Position numbers and translations under genes: made by a program
Virus record (IMG/VR): IMGVR_UViG_3300050010_000202
Span: 1 to 38,331 of that record
Origin: a virus
Direction: 5' to 3' (one strand)
DNA: 38,331 nt
In this document: in pieces, positions 9,789 to 36,584 of the stretch
How the letters are laid out: every line of letters starts with the position of its first letter
Position numbering within the stretch: the stretch's first letter is position 1
Notes under the pieces: generated by a model
Told to the model about the DNA's origin: nothing
What the model saw: the letters and a program-made list of their open reading frames with translations, nothing else
Databases searched by the model: none

Positions 9789-11825
9789 TTAAGGTCCATC
9801 AAAAATAAACCCGCCTGTCACATTGCTCTGCGCGCTTCCCACACTCGTTGTCGGCTCGGGGGAACTGTAGGGGCGGACCAGCATGTATTTAATGAGCATA
9901 GTCGTGCTACTCTGTGACGACGCAGCCCCCAGCGACAAAGTCCCGTACATCGTATTGGTCGGCGTAGCAGTGGCCGAGGAGATGTCCACGAAGGCGTTCG
10001 CGTCATTCTGAATCTTGACATCTGTCGAGCTATTGAGCCACGTCCTATGTAGATGATATGCGGTTGCGTCGAGCGCCTGCGTCGTCGTGACCGTGGCGTT
10101 ATTCGATACATTATTGCTCATTCCCTGCCAATAGGCGGAAGCGTTCAGACCGTCACACACGCACGCGAAGATATTCAATGAGAAATCGGCCACAAACCCC
10201 ATGATGTCGTAGTGGTTCGTGCTGTTCGCGGCCTGCTCGTTGCGCGTGTATGCCTCGAAGATGTAACCGTTCGTAAACTGCTGCGCGGTATAGATACCGT
10301 AAACCGCGGCTCCCGCACCAGATACCATGGTGCCGACATTCCCTGAAATCGTAAGGCTGCCACCGCTCCCTGATTCCTGGCGCGTATAGGCATGGGAGGG
10401 GAGTGGAGTCGAAGCGAAGCCTTCGTAAAATCCGAATACCTGGTCGGGCGGGAATCCTTGGACGGTGTTGACCGCCGACATGGTCGCCATGCCGATCTCC
10501 AGGTTACTCGTGACGTTATTGATTGACCCGGCGTAGGGGAAATAGTATGTGTTGCTATATAGGGAGATTGCCCCCCTGAAAGCGGCATCGGAATCCCATG
10601 CGCTGTCATTCCCCCGGCTAAGAGTGATATTGCCTCGCGTGACGTTAACAAGATCAGTTGTGGAATAATAGGCCGTGTGGCAAGGCAGAGAGGTTGTTGC
10701 GGGGTCCTGGAGCGTCACCGCGCAATAGATGTAGACGGTGCCTCCTACCTCATAGGCATGTGGGTCTCTCGTCGCAGAAGCGTCATAAGCCCCGGCAGGC
10801 CCGAGGGGAATAAGGGGATTCGAGGCGTACTTGGTCCATGGGCCTGCCGGACTGCTGGCGTAAGCATAGCCGGTCTGAGGGATCTCGCTCCCGGCAGCGG
10901 TCGCCTTGTCTCCCATGTAGAGCATGACCCATGTGCCAGCCGCAAGGCTTCCGTGAGCATTGGCAAGCTGGAAAACGTAAGGCTCCGCGACCCGCCCACT
11001 TTCCCACCCCGTACCAAGCACCCCGGCTGTTGAGACGCAGGCCCCCTGATCCGTGTAGGTGCCCGTAACTGCACTCGCGGTGGCGTAGTGGATTGAGAAC
11101 GTGCCGTACACCGTCCCTACCGAGTAATAGAGATAATACGTGCCGCCGCTTATCACGAGACACGGGCCGTCAGGGTCGTTACTCAGGCCCGAGATAGTGA
11201 GGTCGCCGTTGTAGGTCCAGGTGGTCAGGTCGGTGGAATACGCCAGCCCGATTTTGGACGTGTTCATGTTGTCGATGACCATCCAGTATTTACTAGTGGC
11301 CGAGTCATAGACGATATTCTCAGGCGTGAGGGAGCCCGTGTGGGTGCCGTCCGACGTGATGACCGGATTGCCTGGATATTTGGTCCATGCCCCGATAGGC
11401 GGCACCTGGAAGGATGTAGGGGCGGCGTTGCCATAATAGATATACACGCTTGTCGTGCTGCTGCCGGGAATTGACGGGACGTTAACCCAGATTGTTCCGA
11501 CCTGACTCGCGCTGTTCCAGGAGGCATGCGTCACGCCATCGGGGGTCACTATAGCAGGACCTGTCTGGATCCAATAGGGAATCAGCGTGACGCCATCCGA
11601 CGCCGTGACCCTGATGTCCGAGCCGTCCGACTTTGCGACGGAGAAATCGAAATTTGAGCTGGTAAGGTCGATGGGGCGGGCATAGCCTGTCAGTGTGTTC
11701 GCATTGCTCGTGTTCGTGACCGTGACGGCGCGCCTGGTGCTCCAGGATGAGTTATACCAGCCTGCCCCATGTACAAGGCAGGGCCACAGGATAAGTGCGA
11801 TGAGAAGAACGGTTATCCGGCGCAT
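9789..11825 (-). CDS. Secreted DUF2341 / beta-propeller glycosidase-like protein
   Basis: 678 residues. The start at 11825 overlaps the previous stop (TGATG). Signal peptide: MRRITVLLIALILWPCLVHG. A DUF2341 beta-sandwich follows (about 22-125; begins GWYNSSWSTRRAV, ends SVYIYYGN). Next is a five-bladed propeller like GH43/GH130 glycosidases (about 130-460; repeated WTKYPGNPV and WTKYASNPL blade starts, DPDGPCLVISGGTYYLYYS). A C-terminal LamG/concanavalin-like domain (about 475-660) completes it. It likely binds or cleaves a surface polysaccharide. Catalytic residues cannot be confirmed by eye. It is encoded beside tail-fibre genes but carries an export signal. Confidence 0.75.
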   Translation of the reverse strand: MRRITVLLIALILWPCLVHGAGWYNSSWSTRRAVTVTNTSNANTLTGYARPIDLTSSNFDFSVAKSDGSDIRVTASDGVTLIPYWIQTGPAIVTPDGVTHASWNSASQVGTIWVNVPSIPGSSTTSVYIYYGNAAPTSFQVPPIGAWTKYPGNPVITSDGTHTGSLTPENIVYDSATSKYWMVIDNMNTSKIGLAYSTDLTTWTYNGDLTISGLSNDPDGPCLVISGGTYYLYYSVGTVYGTFSIHYATASAVTGTYTDQGACVSTAGVLGTGWESGRVAEPYVFQLANAHGSLAAGTWVMLYMGDKATAAGSEIPQTGYAYASSPAGPWTKYASNPLIPLGPAGAYDASATRDPHAYEVGGTVYIYCAVTLQDPATTSLPCHTAYYSTTDLVNVTRGNITLSRGNDSAWDSDAAFRGAISLYSNTYYFPYAGSINNVTSNLEIGMATMSAVNTVQGFPPDQVFGFYEGFASTPLPSHAYTRQESGSGGSLTISGNVGTMVSGAGAAVYGIYTAQQFTNGYIFEAYTRNEQAANSTNHYDIMGFVADFSLNIFACVCDGLNASAYWQGMSNNVSNNATVTTTQALDATAYHLHRTWLNSSTDVKIQNDANAFVDISSATATPTNTMYGTLSLGAASSQSSTTMLIKYMLVRPYSSPEPTTSVGSAQSNVTGGFIFDGP

Positions 11826-13048
11826 CAGAAGTTGTCTCCGATTGATCCGCAGAAGTAGGCCGACATGGCCCCGCTGTACTGGCATGTGATCGCATCATGC
11901 TTCGTCGAGGCTCCCGAGAAGGTCGGGGCCGATCCGCTTACCCATGTCACTGTAGGGCTGAAGGTCGGCAAGGGTGCCGGTCCTGATGACCCCTGAATCA
12001 CGTATATGCGGTACACCTGACCCGCTACGGGGTTACTCATGGTGAGGGTCCATGCGGTCGTGTTGTTCTGTGCAGTGAGCACGCACGTGGACCCGGAGCC
12101 CCAGTTGCATGTTGCGGCGTTCGATGAGACCGTGACGGACTGTTCCCCCCCTCCCATGTAGGCCGATACGTTGGAGACCGAGGTCACCTTGGTCGAGTCC
12201 GCTACCGTGCAGGTCGACCCGAGGGTGCAGGCCTGCCCGTTGACCGTCGTGGAGGCATTGGCGAGGTTCGCATTACTGATCCCCGCCGAGCCCGAAAGGT
12301 TGCTGTTTGTGAGTCCACTTATCGAATTAGACCCAGCCGCGATGGTCTTATTCGTGAGGGCCTGGCTGTCGGACGTGCCTACGATTGTTCCGGCCGGAGC
12401 CGTGAGGGACGTCCCCCATGTGCTTGAGCCGGAATAAACCGCGATGCCAGCCGCAGACGGCCATGTCATGGAGCCGCCCCCCGCGTACTGCGGGATATTC
12501 AGTGTGCCTGCGCTTAATGTCGCCGCGCCACTCGTGCCGGTCGTTGTCAGGGTGAGGGCTGCCTGTTTGCTCGACGTGGTGATTGCCGACCATGAGTCAA
12601 GATTCGCGCTCCACGCTTCGGTATTGGTGCCGATGACTAAGGAAAGGTCCGCGGGGGTGACCGTGACGTTTCCGGAAAGAGCATAGCCGTTGACTGTGGT
12701 GGATTGGGAGACATAGGAACCGGCTGCCTGGAAGAGCGTGGTGAGAAGGGTCCCTCCCGACTTCGTGCATGTCACCACCCCGGTCGATACCACGATGGTG
12801 CAATCGCCCGACATGGTGAAGCCGCCGAAGGCCGTGCCACTGTTATTCCACTGAATTTGGTTTGCTGTTCCCCCTGGGTTCGCAGCGGTCCCACTCACGG
12901 CCTGACAGGTATATCTCCCCGTGGTCGCGCTGTAGGTCGGGACATACCCCGTCTGCGTGCAGGCAGGCATCTCGAAAATCTGAGGGATCGCCCACGCCTG
13001 TTCTGCCAGGAGGATGCCAAGGAGAATGAGGAGGAGGTAACGTTTCAT
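11825..13048 (-). CDS. Secreted fibre-like protein with cysteine pairs
   Basis: 407 residues. ATG at 13048 with AAGGAG upstream; the frame remains open further upstream but there it only shadows the next gene. Signal peptide MKRYLLLILLGILLAEQAWA. The mature protein is Ser/Thr/Gly-rich, beta-rich and fibre-like (GYALSGNVTVTPADLSLVIG, SDSQALTNKTIAAGSNSISG). Cysteines come in close pairs (CTQTGY..YTC, CTIVVSTGVVTC, CTLGSTC, CNWGSGSTC, CQYSGAMSAYFC), suggesting disulfides formed outside the cytoplasm. Similar 'LTNKTI' segments occur in phage tail fibres. Receptor-binding or adhesin-like role is inferred. Confidence 0.68.
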   Translation of the reverse strand: MKRYLLLILLGILLAEQAWAIPQIFEMPACTQTGYVPTYSATTGRYTCQAVSGTAANPGGTANQIQWNNSGTAFGGFTMSGDCTIVVSTGVVTCTKSGGTLLTTLFQAAGSYVSQSTTVNGYALSGNVTVTPADLSLVIGTNTEAWSANLDSWSAITTSSKQAALTLTTTGTSGAATLSAGTLNIPQYAGGGSMTWPSAAGIAVYSGSSTWGTSLTAPAGTIVGTSDSQALTNKTIAAGSNSISGLTNSNLSGSAGISNANLANASTTVNGQACTLGSTCTVADSTKVTSVSNVSAYMGGGEQSVTVSSNAATCNWGSGSTCVLTAQNNTTAWTLTMSNPVAGQVYRIYVIQGSSGPAPLPTFSPTVTWVSGSAPTFSGASTKHDAITCQYSGAMSAYFCGSIGDNF

Positions 13049-14679: not shown

Positions 14680-15549
14680 TCATACCGAATACCATATTGT
14701 CCCATCGCTGACTATCCTTTTGAAGGCCCATTGGGCCAACGTGGGCGAGGCCGTCCCGTCCACCGTGCCCGTGATGGTCATAGTCGTGGCATTGATGTTC
14801 TTCACCGTGAAGCCTCCTCCGGGCGGAAATGTGCTTGCGGCAGGCAAAGTGAAGGTGGGGGCATTGGTGCTGTTCATCAGGATTATCTGCCCCATGTTCG
14901 CGATTGTGGGGGCGAATGTCACGGTGGCGGCTGTCAAAGTGAGCGTAGGCTGCACCGGGGAAGCCGTCGGCATACCTGCGGGGAGAACCCCAAGGGCAAC
15001 GGCGGTGAGGCTATTGTTCAGTGCTGTATTGTCCCACGCCACCGTTACCGTAGTGATGATAGGGGTGCCCCCGGATGTCGCCGCCGTGATGGTCCCGTAG
15101 ATGTTACCTCCAGAAACAGCTGCCTGCACTCTTGTGCCGGGGGTATAAGACGCCGTCAGGTTTCCAGAAACCGTGAACTGAGTCGAGGACACGTAGGTGG
15201 GAACGGTGGTCTGCGTCACGAACTGGGGCGATGTAGACGTAACAGAAGGAGAGTTGGAAAGGTTGTCCTGTGAGGATACGGAATTTCCGTTTGCGTCAAA
15301 AACAACCACCTTCGTGGGGCCGGTGATAAAAATAGGGGCCTCCCCGTTGCTATCAAGAATGATCGGATTGGCGTTCGGTGCTGTCCCTAGGGCGTCGGCA
15401 TAGGTCGTCATGGGGGAGGCGGGAGGAAAGCCAAAGGCAGCGGAGGTACCGGGCTGCACGGTATAGACGTAGCCTCCCGACAGGGGATTGCTGGTGCCGG
15501 GGTAGAATTCCTTGAATCTTACGGCTGGACAGACTGCTAAGAGTGGCAT
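14680..15549 (-). CDS. Tail fibre/spike protein
   Basis: 289 residues, ATG with GGGAGA upstream. The N-terminus (KEFYPGTSNPLSGGYVYTVQ, TYADALGTAPNANPIILDS, NGEAPIF) is the standard head-proximal part of podophage fibres and spikes that attaches to the virion. The rest is Thr/Val/Ala-rich beta structure with a C-terminal stretch (TVKNINATTMTITGTVDG, WAFKRIVSDGTIWYSV) typical of fibre tips. Unlike the next four secreted genes downstream it has no signal peptide, so it is the best candidate for the true virion fibre. Confidence 0.75.
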   Translation of the reverse strand: MPLLAVCPAVRFKEFYPGTSNPLSGGYVYTVQPGTSAAFGFPPASPMTTYADALGTAPNANPIILDSNGEAPIFITGPTKVVVFDANGNSVSSQDNLSNSPSVTSTSPQFVTQTTVPTYVSSTQFTVSGNLTASYTPGTRVQAAVSGGNIYGTITAATSGGTPIITTVTVAWDNTALNNSLTAVALGVLPAGMPTASPVQPTLTLTAATVTFAPTIANMGQIILMNSTNAPTFTLPAASTFPPGGGFTVKNINATTMTITGTVDGTASPTLAQWAFKRIVSDGTIWYSV

Positions 15550-15558
15550 GTGATCTCC

Positions 15559-17079
15559 CTAAAACTCGATTCCGTTTTCACGGCCCTTGGAGATGCTGTT
15601 CTTTATTTCCTTCAGTTGTTCGATGCCTTTGTCTATGCGTTTCGCGTCGATCTCTTTTGCCCGCTCTTCAACGAGGCCCACCGCTTCATCTATGGTGTTG
15701 CCGAGACCTATGACGGTGCCCAAGGAATCGAAGCCGGGGACCGCGTAATAATCTTCGCCCTTCCTCACCGCCCGCCTGAACTTCACCCATTGGCGTATCT
15801 TTTTTGGCACGGTGATGTTGAGCCATGTTTTGTTCGCTTCCTCCGAATGGAAAGCACAGGCGGCACCATACTTGTGCTTCATAATAGGCTGCACCTTGGC
15901 CCCCGTGGCGAGGCCGTACACTACCTCTGTGTAGTTCTCGATCAATTCAGACTGTATGGCAGCCGTCCCGGGGCCTGCTAGGCGCATGGTAGGGTCTATC
16001 AGGTAGGGAATCTTATCCTTGTCTATCTTGATCTCCGTCGAGTAGAAGAACCGCGTATGATGCTTCTTGAACTCGGGCGCAAGCCCTTCATGGACCCATA
16101 GGAGCGGTTCAGGCACGTCCTTTTCTTTCCGATAGACCCGCTCGATGATACCCACTCCTTTCTGCTCGTATCCTCCCATGGTGGGGTAAAGAAGTTCCCC
16201 GTCCCACGTGATCGCGTCGAGGCCCGGCTCTTCCCCCGGTAGCAGCTCCTCTATGGTGAACCACACCTCTTCTTTGTAGGGGTGGCCCAGTTTGAAAGCC
16301 ATGTGATCTATCGTGGGCTCCACGTCCCGGTAGTCGGTGTATTTGAAGCTCTCCTCGATGCCGCGGTACTGGTTATCCACCTTGACGTACATATTCTTGT
16401 GGGTCTTGCAGAACTCACGAAGCGCCGTGACGCCCTTTATCCGGTGGGTCTCCTGAACGGGAAGCCCGTTCTTCTCTTGGATGCCCCGGCCATACCAACG
16501 GTCAAGCTCTACCTTCTCGATGTTGCCCGCCCCCGCCGTGGGGTAATCGTGGGCCTTGAGATATTCGGTGATTCCGGCGCACTGGTTGTCAGGGATGAAG
16601 ACGAAGTCCGCCTTGTCCACTTCCGCCCAGAAGTCGTCTATGCGGGTGATGCCTTCCAGGTTGTCCCCTATGACGCGCTTGAAGGGCTCCGAGAACGCTT
16701 CTGCCCATGGGACGAAGTACATGACCTTGGCGCACTCCCTGGCGAGGCGTGCGGCGTTCTCCGTCCACAGGCCGAGGTCGTAGACGATGCATGTCTTGCT
16801 ACTCAGGTCCACCTTCTCCGTGCCCATGGCAGTCATGAGGTCTTCACTGTGAAGCTCTTCCGTCTCCCCTCCGGCCACGTCCGCCCACTTCCTGAACAGA
16901 ATAGGTTCCTTCGACTTGAGCCAGAGGCGGGCATGGTCACGAGACATGAACTCGCCCGCGGGAGAAAGAAACCCTCGCTGCACCTTCGCATCAGCCGGGA
17001 TGCCGTTCGCCTTGATAATGTCGGGATGGGTTTTCCCGGACAGGGTCTTGCCATTGAAACGAAGAGCAGCCGTCAGCAT
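15559..17079 (-). CDS. ATP-grasp ligase-like protein
   Basis: 506 residues. Residues about 1-90 resemble an N-terminal region of some phage proteins (GKTHPDIIKANGI, RGFLSPAGEFMSRDHARLWL). From about 95 a pre-ATP-grasp Rossmann-like domain starts (TCIVYDLGLWTENAARLARE). Then the ATP-grasp fold: YPTAGAGNIEKVELDRWYG (about 199-217), GLPVQETHRIKGVTALREF, MYVKVDNQYRG (lysine-bearing strand), EVWFTIEELLPGEEP and a C-terminal PYLIDPTMRLAGPG (about 368-381) that resembles the metal-binding end of the fold. PurD-like ligases share this order. It would join a carboxylate to an amine using ATP; substrate unknown. Position between ejection and fibre genes suggests modification of a virion or cell-surface component. 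Confidence 0.68.
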   Translation of the reverse strand: MLTAALRFNGKTLSGKTHPDIIKANGIPADAKVQRGFLSPAGEFMSRDHARLWLKSKEPILFRKWADVAGGETEELHSEDLMTAMGTEKVDLSSKTCIVYDLGLWTENAARLARECAKVMYFVPWAEAFSEPFKRVIGDNLEGITRIDDFWAEVDKADFVFIPDNQCAGITEYLKAHDYPTAGAGNIEKVELDRWYGRGIQEKNGLPVQETHRIKGVTALREFCKTHKNMYVKVDNQYRGIEESFKYTDYRDVEPTIDHMAFKLGHPYKEEVWFTIEELLPGEEPGLDAITWDGELLYPTMGGYEQKGVGIIERVYRKEKDVPEPLLWVHEGLAPEFKKHHTRFFYSTEIKIDKDKIPYLIDPTMRLAGPGTAAIQSELIENYTEVVYGLATGAKVQPIMKHKYGAACAFHSEEANKTWLNITVPKKIRQWVKFRRAVRKGEDYYAVPGFDSLGTVIGLGNTIDEAVGLVEERAKEIDAKRIDKGIEQLKEIKNSISKGRENGIEF

Positions 17080-17089
17080 GAAATACCTC

Positions 17090-17118
17090 TTGACTTGGGA
17101 CGGGACAGGGTGGACAAT
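17090..17118 (+). promoter_or_regulatory. Sigma70-like promoter for the opposite-strand gene
   Basis: TTGACT at 17090-17095 and GACAAT at 17113-17118 with a 17-base spacer. The predicted transcript would start about 15 bases before the ATG at 17140. This is the only convincing promoter-like pair in the middle of the late region and it points against the late operon. Confidence 0.45.
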
Positions 17119-17139
17119 AGGGGAAAGGAGGACATGACC

Positions 17140-17325
17140 ATGTGGACAATCGCGGGAGGCGTGATATTGGGGGTGGCGGGGATTGCCGTCATTTTCTTCG
17201 TGGGGAGATTCATCCTCGACCTTATTTTCGAATTTTCTGACTCCGACGGTATCAAGACGTTCTTTATCCGTGTTGCCATGACGGCATTCTTCTTATTTGT
17301 CATTTACCATACCTTATGGGGTTGA
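17140..17325 (+). CDS. Two-span small membrane protein on the opposite strand
   Basis: 61 residues. AAGGAGG lies eight bases before this ATG; an ATG at 17134 is too close to that site. Two hydrophobic helices (AGGVILGVAGIAVIFFVGRF, 5-24, and VAMTAFFLFVIYHTLW) are joined by an acidic loop (EFSDSDG). The gene is transcribed against the surrounding late genes with a promoter-like pair just upstream, and its 3' end overlaps the converging neighbour by 12 bases. This is the layout of a 'moron' gene. Two-span proteins include holins and superinfection-exclusion factors; no family is recognised. Confidence 0.65.
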   Translation: MWTIAGGVILGVAGIAVIFFVGRFILDLIFEFSDSDGIKTFFIRVAMTAFFLFVIYHTLWG

Positions 17326-18864
17326 TCCCGCCCCCGATGGCACCTGTTCTGAAGTAGCACCTTCTCCCACATTGAAATAGGGCTTAGATGCACCGGCTTT
17401 CCCCACTTGATACAGGGCATTGGGTCTTGCCGCCGATATCCCTGCCCTACCTTCCTTGCCTGCCCATTTAGCAAGTCTCGACATACTCGCTTGGGTAGTG
17501 GCTATTTTGTAGGCCACCGCACCCGGTACACCCTTTTCTACCAGCACGCCGAAGAGCATTCCGGAAAGGCTTATGGGGTCGAGATTTCCGCCTCTGTTGA
17601 GCGCTCTTTCGACCCATTTCCTCGCGTTCATGAGACCCGCCTCTGTCCGCATGGCCTGCCTTACCGATTTAGGCACATCGGGATGGTTCAGCACTTCGTT
17701 TCGAAGGACCGAAGCCGCCCGCGCCTTCGCTTTCGTATAAGCCGCCTCGGTATCGGCGTTCATCCCTACCCGGCCCGTTTCCGGCTTCTGGCCTCTGGCG
17801 TAATAAGACTGTATTTCCTGATAAATGCCCTTCTTCAGCTGGTTGGCGTCCATAAGGCTTATGGTGTCGGGAACGGATACCGTTTTCTGCTGAGGAACGG
17901 TGAGAGGCTGGCCGTTGGGGCCTACTATGCTCGTCGGGGCATTTACTGTTACCTGAGCCTTACGAGCGGCGAAATCGTGCTCAATGACGCTTTTCTTCGC
18001 CTCATCTATGGCCCGGTAATAATCCTGAGAATCAGGACGGTTCACATACTCCTTTTTCATGTCCTCAAGGGCTTTCGACACCTTGTCTATGGAGAACTCG
18101 GCCCCCTGCCGAGAAAGATTGTCGAGGGTATTGTCTATGTGGGTCTCGAGACCCTTCATTCTCGCGTTCATGGCGGGAAGCGTTTTGCTGCCCAATGAGG
18201 GAATGTCCCCTCGAGACATCGTAGAGGCAACGTCTTGCCGCACCTCATCCCGCAAGCTCCCCGGCGGCATCTTCATGGCCTTGGTCATCAACCATTCCGG
18301 GGCTTTAGTGGCCGCTATTCTATTCGCTCCCGCCGCTATCGGCTTGGTTGCCAGCGATACGGGGTTCGTGAAGGAGGCTCCTGTCCGTGCCGCAGCGGCT
18401 GCACTTTCAATGCCCGCTTTCTCTGCTATCCCGGCACCGCCGGAGAAAACGGAAGAGATATCAGCGAGAAAACCCACGGGGTCTTCCGCCATGGTTTTCT
18501 TGACGTTTTCCCATCCCCCATAACGGTCCTTCATTCCTGTCACAAAAGCATCGAAGGCAGGTTCTTCTTTCCCTGTCCCGGCCTTTTTGCCGATGATCAT
18601 ATCAAGGCCTTTTTCAACGCCACCGGCCGCAATGTCTCCCAATGCTTTGCCGTTCCGAGGATCGAGGCCCCTTACCGTATTAACCGCGAAATTGGTGGCG
18701 CTCGGGATGATGTTGCCCGGGACTTCTCTGAGTCTCTGCCCCAAGCTCCGGGGGATGACGGAGGGGGGAGGGGCATCATCAAACTTGACGGTGGAGGCGT
18801 CCAGAATACGCCCCTTGGATTGGGGAGTGTCGAAAGTAACTTGGCTGGCGTCAACAATAGGCAT
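17314..18864 (-). CDS. Putative internal virion / ejection protein
   Basis: 516 residues. The N-terminus contains two copies of a ten-residue motif, IVDASQVTFD (3-12) and ILDASTVKFD (20-29), seen at the start of podophage internal virion proteins. Long Ala-rich helices follow, with a region AGIAEKAGIESAAAAARTGA that may be membrane-active, and charged coiled-coil segments (about 230-300). It is the first of three adjacent genes (with 18868-20796 and 20789-21844) that match the position of P22 ejection genes 16, 20 and 7. Function is assigned by position and composition. Confidence 0.6.
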   Translation of the reverse strand: MPIVDASQVTFDTPQSKGRILDASTVKFDDAPPPSVIPRSLGQRLREVPGNIIPSATNFAVNTVRGLDPRNGKALGDIAAGGVEKGLDMIIGKKAGTGKEEPAFDAFVTGMKDRYGGWENVKKTMAEDPVGFLADISSVFSGGAGIAEKAGIESAAAAARTGASFTNPVSLATKPIAAGANRIAATKAPEWLMTKAMKMPPGSLRDEVRQDVASTMSRGDIPSLGSKTLPAMNARMKGLETHIDNTLDNLSRQGAEFSIDKVSKALEDMKKEYVNRPDSQDYYRAIDEAKKSVIEHDFAARKAQVTVNAPTSIVGPNGQPLTVPQQKTVSVPDTISLMDANQLKKGIYQEIQSYYARGQKPETGRVGMNADTEAAYTKAKARAASVLRNEVLNHPDVPKSVRQAMRTEAGLMNARKWVERALNRGGNLDPISLSGMLFGVLVEKGVPGAVAYKIATTQASMSRLAKWAGKEGRAGISAARPNALYQVGKAGASKPYFNVGEGATSEQVPSGAGSTP

Positions 18865-25679: not shown

Positions 25680-26660
25680 TCAAAAAGTTCCCTTGGACAA
25701 AAAGCCAAGGTTACGGTTCTGTGACTCCTCATAGATGTGCTGCCAGCGCCCAGCGTTCAATTCACTGTTGGGATCGTCCTTCTGGGCAAGGGCGATCTGG
25801 GCCATGAGCAATGCCGCCTCTTTGAAATCCGCATTAACGGAGAGGCAGAGCACGAAGTTACGCTTGGCCTCTTCCAGTTCTCCCATCTTCGCGTAGGCCC
25901 ATCCCACAGTGAAATAGACGTCCGCGAGTTCCGAACGGCCCGTGACGATGCCCTTCATGGTGCGGGTACGGATATACCGCTCGAACCAGTAGATGGAGTT
26001 GGGGAGGTATCCGGCGTTGAAGTATTCCCGAGCCATGCAGTAGTGATTCCGCATGTCGTCGGGGTTCTCCCGGCACATGTTTTCAAGAATGGGCATCAGG
26101 TTCTTAGGCCTGGATTTGTAGTTGATGACCACATTTTCGAGTTTCGCCTTGTTGGTGACCAAGCAGTATTCGTGGACAGGGGACCGAAAGTAAATGTCCT
26201 TCCTGTTCCTGAATACCCGGTCGGACCAAAACTGGTCGGGCCCGCTCTTCATGAGGACCGCGCACGCCTCTACTTCGGGGTGGTCCGTCTCGATGATGGC
26301 GAGGCCTCGCCTGATCTCTTCGAGGCATCCCTCTTCAAGTCTTTCCCCGGCACCCATACAAAGTATCCAGTCGGTGGAGCACAGCCGCATGGAGGCGGTC
26401 CTGGCCGCTCCGTAGTCGGGGTTCTGATCGTCCCACGTGTATAGACCATTGATAAAGTCTCCTCCGCATTCCCTGACGATGTCTCCGGTCCTGTCAATGG
26501 ACCCGGTATCAAGCACTTTCATTTCGTCTATGCCGGACACGCTCTTGAGGCAGTCTCCGACCCGCGCTTCCTCGTCCCGGACGAACAGGGACAGGCCGAG
26601 GGTGGGGGTCTTCTGCCTCATGGCCTGCTTCATGGCGAGGACGTTCCGGGGGCCTTTCAT
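25680..26660 (-). CDS. Family 2 glycosyltransferase with TPR-like C-terminus
   Basis: 326 residues. ATG at 26660 overlaps the acyltransferase stop (ATGA). The GT-A nucleotide-binding half reads TLGLSLFVRDEEARVGDCLK (19-38), KVLDTGSIDRTGDIVRECG (48-66) and DYGAARTASMRLCSTDWILC (80-99). The next residues, MGAGERLE, stand where family members usually carry the metal-binding D-A-D motif, so that motif is lost. A C-terminal half follows with tetratricopeptide-like helices (YFTVGWAYAKMGELEEAKRN). It would transfer a sugar to an acceptor, perhaps a virion protein or host envelope glycan. Activity is uncertain given the missing Asp residues. Confidence 0.78.
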   Translation of the reverse strand: MKGPRNVLAMKQAMRQKTPTLGLSLFVRDEEARVGDCLKSVSGIDEMKVLDTGSIDRTGDIVRECGGDFINGLYTWDDQNPDYGAARTASMRLCSTDWILCMGAGERLEEGCLEEIRRGLAIIETDHPEVEACAVLMKSGPDQFWSDRVFRNRKDIYFRSPVHEYCLVTNKAKLENVVINYKSRPKNLMPILENMCRENPDDMRNHYCMAREYFNAGYLPNSIYWFERYIRTRTMKGIVTGRSELADVYFTVGWAYAKMGELEEAKRNFVLCLSVNADFKEAALLMAQIALAQKDDPNSELNAGRWQHIYEESQNRNLGFLSKGTF

Positions 26661-27175
26661 ATCAGTTCGTCCTCCCTGACCATGCCCCTGATTCTCGCGG
26701 GGGCCCCGAAGGCAACGCACGCTTCCGGGACGTTCCGAGTCACGAGTGACCCGGCGCCCACCACGGCGTTCTTTCCTATGGTGACACCGGGGAGGACCGT
26801 GACATTTGCCGCGATACGAGCGCCGTACCTGATCGTGTACCCCTCCTGGATGAAGGGCTTCTTGTGACGCCTCTGGTGGACCATGATGCGGTCATTACAG
26901 CCGACGAACATGGGGGCGATGAAGACCTTATCCTCGATGGTCGCGCCTTTCGTGATGTGGCACTGTGCGTGAACCAGGCAGTCGGAGCCCACTGTACACT
27001 CGCCCTCGAAGACGGTGCCGTGCCCTATGACGGTCCTGTCGCCTATGACCGTGTTCGGACGCATCACGACGAAATGTCCTATGAAGCAGTCCTCTCCGAT
27101 GGCACACCCTTCCTGGATGATAGCCGTGTCCTCGATGGTCGTTCCTTTTCCTATTTGCGCGCTTTCATCTATCAT
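26657..27175 (-). CDS. Hexapeptide-repeat (left-handed beta-helix) acyltransferase
   Basis: 172 residues, ATG after GAGGAG. Tandem hexapeptides with the [LIV]-G-x-x-x-x pattern run through most of the protein (AQIGKGTTI, CAIGEDCFIG, TVIGDRTVIG, ITKGATIEDK), then a loop with H-Q-R-R-H (about 104-108) and further turns (ARIAANVTVLPGVTIGKNAV). It matches WbbJ/WecH-type sugar O- or N-acetyltransferases. It would acylate a sugar using acetyl-CoA or a similar donor. It is translationally coupled to the glycosyltransferase, so they likely act on the same glycan. Confidence 0.85.
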   Translation of the reverse strand: MIDESAQIGKGTTIEDTAIIQEGCAIGEDCFIGHFVVMRPNTVIGDRTVIGHGTVFEGECTVGSDCLVHAQCHITKGATIEDKVFIAPMFVGCNDRIMVHQRRHKKPFIQEGYTIRYGARIAANVTVLPGVTIGKNAVVGAGSLVTRNVPEACVAFGAPARIRGMVREDELI

Positions 27176-34578: not shown

Positions 34579-34739
34579 TTGCGGGGCTCCTTCTCGGCGC
34601 ATTCAAGACACATGACTCTTTCGGTCTGTGTGGGAACGCCTATGTCTTCTTCTCCAAAAACGGTTGACAGGATGATGTGTTGAACGGTGATGCGCTTCAC
34701 GATGATGGGGGATTCCTCTTTACAGACGGGGCACATCAT
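34575..34739 (-). CDS. 54-residue zinc-ribbon protein
   Basis: Start MMCPVCKEESP at 34739, overlapping the terminase stop as ATGA; a GGAAGG site lies just upstream. Cys pairs CPVC (3-6) and CLEC (46-49) form a zinc-ribbon. Between them is a hydrophobic beta segment (VKRITVQHIILSTVF). It is located between terminase and portal, where some phages carry small assembly factors. Function is unknown. Confidence 0.6.
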   Translation of the reverse strand: MMCPVCKEESPIIVKRITVQHIILSTVFGEEDIGVPTQTERVMCLECAEKEPRK

Positions 34740-36584
34740 ATCCGGCCTTCCAGGGGAGCTTTTGCCTGCGCCACAAGGGCCGCGTAATCCACGGGGGCCT
34801 CCTCTGCGGGGTCGGTATAGCGGAGGCCGGTCTGAGAGAAACGACCTATACATTCCGGGAAATGCCCCTTATCGCTCGGCTTCCCATTGTCCTCGTAAAT
34901 CCACCGGTCAATCTGCCGAAGGGTCTCCTCGCAATGGGCCATGACGAAGAACAGGGGCGGGATGTGAGTCATCCACTCCTCTATTTTGGCGATGTAGTTC
35001 TGCTCCGCCTTGGACCCCACGGCGAGCTTGAGGCCGTGTTTCTTGAGAAAGCGCTCGATCTCGTAGTAGGAATCTTCCGTCTCGACTCCCCGGCGATTCT
35101 TCACATAGGCAGAATCTCCCTTTGCCAAAGCATCAATTTCCCCGCCCTTCATGCGCCACCCCTCCCGCTCCTTCCTGCGCACGATCTCGTCTACGATCTG
35201 TTCGTTCGTGAGATGGGCCCATACCTCGTCGCAGATGAAATGACGGCCCCATGGGTCGACGGCGCGGAAGCTGATGGCAATATTCTCGGCGGGGTGAAAA
35301 TCTATCTGGAAGTCCACCGGCCAGCTGACCGGCACCTTGAAGTCGTCCACCCGGTGGATGTCTGGCTGAAAATGCTTCCATACCTTCCCCATGAGGTGCT
35401 TGGGTTCCCCGAAGACCCGAGGTATGCGCTCGCTGTCGTCCTTCAATTCCTTGATGAACCGGTGAATCTGGAGGCGCTGCAAGGCGAAGGTGACGGCATC
35501 GAGGGTGAAGACCTGGCCGAAGTCGTTTCGAAACTCCACGGTCCTACTCCCTATGAGTTCCTTGATAAGAGACTCGGTCTCGGGCAGGTTCTTGGTCTTG
35601 CGGGCTTCCCTCTTCTGGAGGGAGAGAATATGGGTGGACTGCTCTTCGGTAAGGCCGCACTTCGTCAGGACGGCCATGTCATTGTCGTAGAGGTGCGGGG
35701 CGTCCCATAGGGACACATTAGTGATGACCTTAACGTCAGGGCGGTTCTCGTTAATCAGGTCATCGAATATCCATGCCTCTTTCAAGGGGGTCATGGACAT
35801 GAAGACCTTACCGTTCGTCATGAAGAGGGCGCGAGCCATGCCTATCCAGACGGTCTGGGGCGGGGGTTCATCGGGCCACCACGCATCGCACTTGAAGGAT
35901 TCGAAGAGGTCTTTGTCCTGCCGGTAGGTCATGATGCGGAGTTCGCTACCGGTTTTCTTGTGGACCCAATGGGACTCGGCGCCCACGTTGTTCTTCGTGG
36001 TGGTCCACTCGTTATCCTGGCAAAAGAACTTGAGTTCAGGAACAAGGGTCTCCTTGACATGTTCGTCCCAGTCTTCCGACGAAGTCTTTTTCCACCTCGT
36101 TCCACGGCTCGTACCCGATAGCCCACGAATGGACAAGGGCGGCGCCTGCACGGCTTTTGCCGACCTTGTTGGAGAGGGGGAGTACGACGATGTTGAAGCC
36201 TATCCTGAAGGCATCGAAAATAGCTTTCTGGTACTCATAGGGCTTGAAGAAGGTAAGCTGGTGTGTATCCTCGTAGCCCTTCAGGACCACGGCCTTCTCA
36301 TAGCTCTTCCGCTCCAACTCCTCGATCGCCTGGATGATACCGAGGGTCTTGTCGGGGTCCTTCCGGTAGGCCGACATGAGCATGTCTTTCGACAGGCCGG
36401 AAGATTCGATGGCCGGCAGGATGGCGTTGAGACGCTTCTCGATCTCGTCGGGAGGAAGGGCCGAAGCAATGACTTCGGGGATTTTGGGCTTAGGGGAAGG
36501 ACGACTATGGGTCTTCCTCGCGGGCTTTACCGCCTTGGTGGTTTTAGACTTGGGCTTGTTGGGCGATCCCTTGGGGCGTCCTAT
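34736..36584 (-). CDS. terL: Terminase large subunit, apparent frameshift and non-ATG start
   Basis: Packaging ATPase-nuclease, about 615 residues if one base is removed. The N-terminal frame (36584 to about 36087) has Walker A SNKVGKSRAG. The C-terminal frame (from about 36088, +1) has Walker B-like CDAWWPDE, the coupling motif VFMSMTPL, and the nuclease acids at VDFQIDFHPAENIAI and LAKGDSAY. The change of frame lies at an A5 run (36087-36091): with four A the frames join as NEVEKTSSEDW. The first ATG in the N-terminal frame is 36383, but the frame is open back to ATA at 36584, which has AAGGAG seven bases upstream, overlaps a stop as ATAG and begins GRPKGSPNK, a common start for such proteins. 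The 67 extra residues are basic and Pro-rich. Confidence 0.8.

Follow-up and report, generated by a model that had tools for sequence, protein, structure and literature searches.

ATP-grasp ligases spend Mg-ATP to activate a carboxylate as its acyl phosphate, and attack of an amine on this intermediate yields an amide. Among described enzymes, the GAR synthetases (PurD; PDB 2yw2, 1vkz and 1gso) and the L-amino-acid ligases BacD/YwfE and BL00235 (3vmm, 3vot) provide the closest comparisons for the protein considered here; the latter amidate small amino compounds, and their known role is to make an antibiotic or dipeptide in cells. Tailed phages encode ATP-grasp enzymes of the R2K/CDC123-like type, which have been proposed to modify proteins (PMC4431377), and LUZ24-like phages carry ATP-grasp, amidoligase and COOH-NH2 ligase genes of peptide-ligase type (PMC3890496). 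In addition, viral metagenome papers name purD as an auxiliary metabolic gene, e.g. PMC11097641. For phage homologues of SpeD, decarboxylase activity on AdoMet, ornithine or arginine has been demonstrated, and the papers that describe them mention no ATP-grasp partner (PMC9992855, PMC10407285).

The window analysed here is a 38,331-base IMG/VR virus record whose gene complement is that of a P22-portal podovirus. Its late genes encode portal, scaffold, major head protein and head closure protein Hc3, followed by ejection-type (DNA-transfer-type) and fibre-type genes. Counterparts of the portal and of Hc3 with 25-33% identity occur in DSL-LC05, Rhodoferax phage P26218 and Vibrio phage VvAW1, among others. 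The gene of interest (15559..17079, minus strand) encodes a PurD-like ATP-grasp protein of 506 aa, identified by ORF calling, HMM search, AF2 and Foldseek. It is a real gene, with its ATG at 17079 and a Shine-Dalgarno-like AAGAGGT read from the sequence 5 nt before this start (17085..17091, minus strand). An earlier note on this DNA had placed the ligase between ejection and fibre genes with no purine pathway nearby, and this setting was borne out. The gene is preceded by an ejection-type protein of 516 aa (17314..18864, minus strand) and followed by a fibre-type protein of 289 aa (14680..15549, minus strand). A search of the window for GARS_A was empty and no purine gene was seen; the flanking genes on both sides belong to the virion, not to purine biosynthesis. 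The gap between the ligase and ejection-type genes holds, on the opposite strand, a 63-aa, strongly hydrophobic ORF resembling a membrane protein (17134-17325, plus strand), which has a textbook Shine-Dalgarno sequence (AAAGGAGGA).

The same note had called a PurD-type ATP-grasp enzyme from the order of its motifs, and structure prediction pointed the same way. AF2 on the single window sequence was of no use (pLDDT 31); with a 54-row alignment of the window protein and 53 relatives (A3), pLDDT was 90.3 and pTM 0.82. The 13 best PDB fold matches found by Foldseek were all GAR synthetases (TMt 0.63-0.73), headed by 2yw2 (E 7.8e-20, TMt 0.72, 15% identity). Biotin carboxylase-type enzymes and L-amino-acid ligases came after them, and neither RimK nor CarB was among the best 50 PDB fold matches listed. 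The sequence profile of A3 matched PurD/GAR synthetase in the PDB at 3e-7, and a modest result was obtained with hhalign against only two PurD sequences (probability 48%, E 1.8e-4). On this model, the window protein has the full PurD-type ATP-grasp fold.

When the protein was compared with the described systems, the likeness to PurD extended to the whole domain order, the full-length fold (TM 0.72 to 2yw2), the ATP-grasp core and a related C-domain. The phage family is nevertheless only 13-18% identical to PurD and does not have the phosphoribosylamine-binding motifs or the GARS signature; its lid reads RG[DIT]xE[TS] where PurD has GLAAGKG, and its metal/Arg site is Asp/Cys(Thr)/Arg in place of Glu/Asn/Arg. 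The L-amino-acid ligases share the ATP-grasp fold and stood high in the fold list, but their fold similarity was below that of PurD and no sequence match was found. The R2K/CDC123-like enzymes belong to a different ATP-grasp clade, and viral fold matches reached TM <=0.42 by query length. The LUZ24-like genes lie in an early region with an amidoligase and an amidotransferase, not in a virion operon (PMC3890496). The ligase resembles PurD in its fold, and its acyl-phosphate chemistry is presumably similar, yet it stands outside the GAR synthetase family.

Residues 90-506 (15562..16812, minus strand) form the PurD-like core, comprising an N-domain, the ATP-grasp domain and a C-domain. Four segments quoted in the earlier note all fall on ATP-grasp elements: GAGNIEKVELDRWYG, which contains R194, GLPVQETHRIKG, YVKVDNQYRG, which contains K233, and DPTMRLAGPG, which contains D362 and R366. 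Profile alignment pairs PurD LESSK with VELDR and places R194 (16498..16500, minus strand) where PurD has its first Lys for ATP binding. Residues 231-245, YVKVDNQYRGIEESF (16345..16389, minus strand), contain K233 of the ATP site and the lid found in place of PurD GLAAGKG. E349 (16033..16035, minus strand) is a putative metal ligand and was invariant, including in 57 members recruited with a different motif. In DPTMR (residues 362-366; 15982..15996, minus strand), D362 is a second putative metal ligand, followed by T364 where Asn is usual and by R366.

Direct searches with the window protein gave no match in Pfam, PHROGs, NCBIfam or the PDB (phmmer), nor did tblastn against plasmids. A search of 50,697 phage records (INPHARED) to E 10 returned only one unrelated chance match at E 7, 8-mer scans of IMG/VR and GTDB with the window protein yielded nothing, and BFVD held no close model for the family. 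The records of 50 portal-related podoviruses contained no ligase homologue. Two initial motif guesses in IMG/VR led to five loci, and those that were read were chance matches. The family was opened with a degenerate DNA pattern for KI[ST]xxRGDxET, which we took to be a motif of uncultured-phage proteins. This pattern recovered 70 IMG/VR loci, all but one or two of which encode proteins of 380-500 aa (a few cut by contig ends) that are 24-36% identical to the window protein, with a best E of 1e-75 over 424 aa, a similarity well outside what chance would give. A second pattern, drawn from another stretch of the protein so that claims of conservation would be independent of the recruiting motif, added 47 members. 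One of these, L220, is 56% identical to the window ligase and carries RGIEES and DPTMR, the variant motifs of the window ligase. Searching with a third pattern, built on this variant, added five more close relatives (L229-L233; 57-62% identical). By HMM search of the recruited loci the family comprises at least 119 loci, a lower bound set by motif recruitment. The IMG/VR contigs are fragments, ORF calls in relatives were mechanical, and the tree referred to below is a quick tree.

Family members scanned against Pfam, PHROGs and NCBIfam gave no match. A GTDB contig scan using one motif identified two cellular loci, and no further member was found in 398 genomes of Pseudomonadota, 385 of the same class and 198 of Bacteroidota (about 980 in total; the Pseudomonadota and same-class samples may overlap). 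The family is thus nearly absent from the cellular genomes sampled.

The genomic placement of the ligase was compared across relatives. In many of them a single strand carries TerL, a SpeD-like or small 139-aa protein, the ATP-grasp gene, a protein of about 100 aa, portal, scaffold-type protein, major head protein and Hc3; the portal in these TerL-side relatives belongs to PHROG 156, as does that of the window. Dozens of loci have TerL, portal and MCP as same-strand neighbours, mostly in the order TerL-[x]-portal-MCP. In another lineage the ligase is flanked by a 763-aa protein whose features resemble those of a portal (no library match) and by a scaffold-type protein. The seven phages of the window's subclade have the ligase between ejection-type proteins and fibre. 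A homologue of the fibre gene is kept downstream in L220, L232 and L233, and a weak homologue of the ejection-type protein (30% over 105 aa, E 2e-6) occupies the corresponding position in L220.

A gene resembling SpeD/AdoMet decarboxylase was found upstream of the ligase in 34 of 119 loci, on the same strand and usually adjoining it. Its product belongs to the same superfamily (PF02675) as the described phage SpeD homologues. The assignment rests on Pfam AdoMet_dc (PF02675), which the L160 partner matched above the cut-off (E 7.5e-9) and those of L122 and L118 just below it; no PDB sequence was matched by a profile built from the SpeD-like proteins. The pyruvoyl serine is kept in these partners (ESF). 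In L160:2978-3397 and the 33 other loci an Asp stands where AdoMetDC has the His of HTW, and the partners may for this reason decarboxylate something other than AdoMet. In the quick tree, the SpeD-like partner was confined to one 47-row clade (26 of 47 rows) and missing from the window's clade. Extension of this partnership to the window phage was rejected, as neither the window nor the searched records of its clade contained a copy.

Our preferred reading, to which we assign a probability of about one in two, is that the protein is a functional carboxylate-amine ligase, produced while virions are assembled, whose amidation target is a virion or packaged component. The ligase would phosphorylate a carboxylate with Mg-ATP to give an acyl phosphate, and an amine would attack this intermediate to form an amide, so that a small amine or amino compound would be joined to a carboxylate of a virion or packaged component during assembly. 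An amine as nucleophile is suggested, at least in the SpeD-like clade, because the partner makes amines; it may be polyamine-like, with the host pool as its source in phages that have no SpeD-like gene, the window phage included. A role during assembly is suggested because the ligase is constantly found alongside head, portal, ejection and fibre genes, and we infer that the target would be a virion or packaged component. Against amidation stand the presence of the SpeD-like partner in one 47-row clade only and the replacement of the Asn and of the first Lys. A fuller proposal, which we regard as tentative and rather doubtful, is that these loci represent a widespread phage system, so far unnamed in the open PMC papers searched. 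Here a PurD-like ligase would link an amine through an amide to a capsid, portal, ejection or fibre protein, or to another packaged component, during assembly; the amine would come from the SpeD-like pyruvoyl decarboxylase in some phages and from the host in others.

The main alternative is that the enzyme makes a small molecule that stays free, such as an aminoacyl- or glutamyl-polyamine, and modifies no protein. This product would neutralise or condense the packaged DNA or load the capsid. The fold matches include PurD and the L-amino-acid ligases, both of which act on small molecules, a SpeD-like decarboxylase adjoins the ligase in one clade, and many members have the ligase between the packaging terminase and the portal. 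However, the window and its clade have no SpeD-like gene, and no transporter or further pathway gene recurs. We consider this explanation possible but not probable.

A place in the late operon would also suit an enzyme acting at lysis or in takeover. The operon would then indicate timing only, and the substrate would be a host component modified late in infection, such as a cell-envelope peptide or a membrane or ribosomal protein. Read by eye, the ligase of L222 and L181 comes after an ejection-like gene or before a peptidase-like one, and in both phages a gene shortly downstream resembles an M23-type peptidase. The R2K phage ATP-grasp enzymes are likewise proposed to act on host proteins (PMC4431377, PMC7824862). 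The main positions of the ligase are, in contrast, in head and ejection-fibre blocks and not in lysis cassettes, and modification of a host component appears unlikely to us.

We also asked whether the protein could be a non-catalytic, PurD-derived structural or ATP-binding component of the virion, as the changed lid (RGIEES for the Gly-rich loop), the lost Asn ligand and the change of the first Lys to Arg would allow. Across 86 non-redundant members, K233, E243, E284, D288, E305, E349, D362, R366 and N382 were invariant, each residue being checked in a set whose recruiting pattern lacked it; K233, R239 and E243 were also invariant in the second, independently recruited set. Position 194 is R in 84 of 85 members and K in one, a conservative swap for the usual first Lys, and position 364, the usual site of an Asn after the second metal acid, holds Cys or Thr in all but one member. 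The family thus keeps an ATP-site Lys (K233), acidic metal ligands (E349 and D362) and R366, with Cys or Thr in place of the Asn ligand and Arg in place of the first Lys as refinements of the earlier call. The active-site Lys, two acids and Arg were unchanged down to about 25% identity. The PurD-type call withstood the refuting condition set in the earlier note, which was a model without the ATP-grasp fold or homologues without the ATP- and metal-binding residues. Values of dN/dS were 0.07-0.16 for member pairs of 74-90% identity and 0.21 for the window and L220, with dS near saturation in the latter pair, and the family is under purifying selection. A degenerate copy in the window was rejected on these grounds: the close relatives L220 and L229-L233 have the same RGIEES and DPTMR motifs and dN/dS is low, which places the window in a conserved subclade. 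In addition, the L181 gene has an intein-like sequence, and inteins usually reside in active enzymes. Residue conservation and low dN/dS look like those of a working enzyme, from which we infer probable catalytic activity, and a purely structural or ATP-binding role seems very unlikely.

A true PurD serving purine synthesis as an auxiliary metabolic gene is refuted in practice: despite the fold, the distant sequence similarity and the literature on viral purD (PMC11097641), the window protein did not match the purD models (NCBIfam TIGR00877, Pfam GARS) at E 10, it and the family consensus do not have GSGGREHA, PNTGGMG or RFGDPE, no purine genes are present and the gene is in a late virion position. 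The locus L166 represents a Bradyrhizobium prophage. The two bacterial genomes in which members occur supplied PurD controls, and these carried GSGGREHA, [PL]NTGGMG and R[FL]GDPE, with exact motifs in the Bradyrhizobium control and LNTGGMG and RLGDPE in that from Bacteroidetes.

These results describe a sizeable ATP-grasp family that is essentially limited to uncultured phages and missing from Pfam, PHROGs, NCBIfam, BFVD and INPHARED phages, and they place an enzyme predicted to form amide bonds inside a virion-assembly operon. Modification of the particle by the ligase would amount to a dedicated virion amidation step; a small-molecule product would mean a new way for phages to use polyamines. 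Fold- or profile-based pipelines may assign the name purD to such genes and score them among purine auxiliary metabolic genes.

The window ligase has an N-terminal extension that is missing in most relatives (16813..17079, minus strand). Residues 1-57 or so fold as a small domain, followed by a flexible linker to residue 89, with pLDDT 81-87 over residues 1-50 (AF2). A mis-called start was rejected as an explanation for these 89 aa, since a Shine-Dalgarno sequence is present and the domain is kept in L232, which is 58% identical over 508 aa and aligns along the full length. The earlier observation that this region occurs in phage proteins holds for L232 and, as a weak copy, for the distant member L221 (E 2e-4); a comparison with a small protein region of Rhizobium phage 16-3 gave E 0.1. 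We call the domain an optional module because most relatives do not have it, and it may perhaps serve in docking.

Several minor observations were made in the relatives and in the window. The intein-like sequence of the L181 ligase gene (3-1874) lies in the N-terminal domain and has a LAGLIDADG-type block and a typical C-terminal GN/C junction; the N-extein lies off the contig. The protein of about 139 aa that often fills the place of the SpeD-like gene, directly upstream of the ligase in L133 (8788-9249) and about 16 other loci, has an HExxE-like motif and no Pfam match. By portal (66%) and Hc3 (58%), the closest relative of the window is IMGVR_UViG_3300050026_000643, a 20.6 kb fragment that stops short of the ligase region. 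The gene before the window's portal (34736-36151, minus strand) is in the position expected for TerL and has no terminase match in PHROGs or Pfam. Between the head and tail genes are a GT2 glycosyltransferase with a TPR repeat (25680-26720, minus strand) and a hexapeptide-repeat transferase (26657-27175, minus strand), which are further small-molecule enzymes within the virion operon. A 698-aa protein encoded downstream of the fibre genes (9789-11885, minus strand) has DUF2341 and GH43-type segments and is a possible glycan-binding protein or depolymerase.
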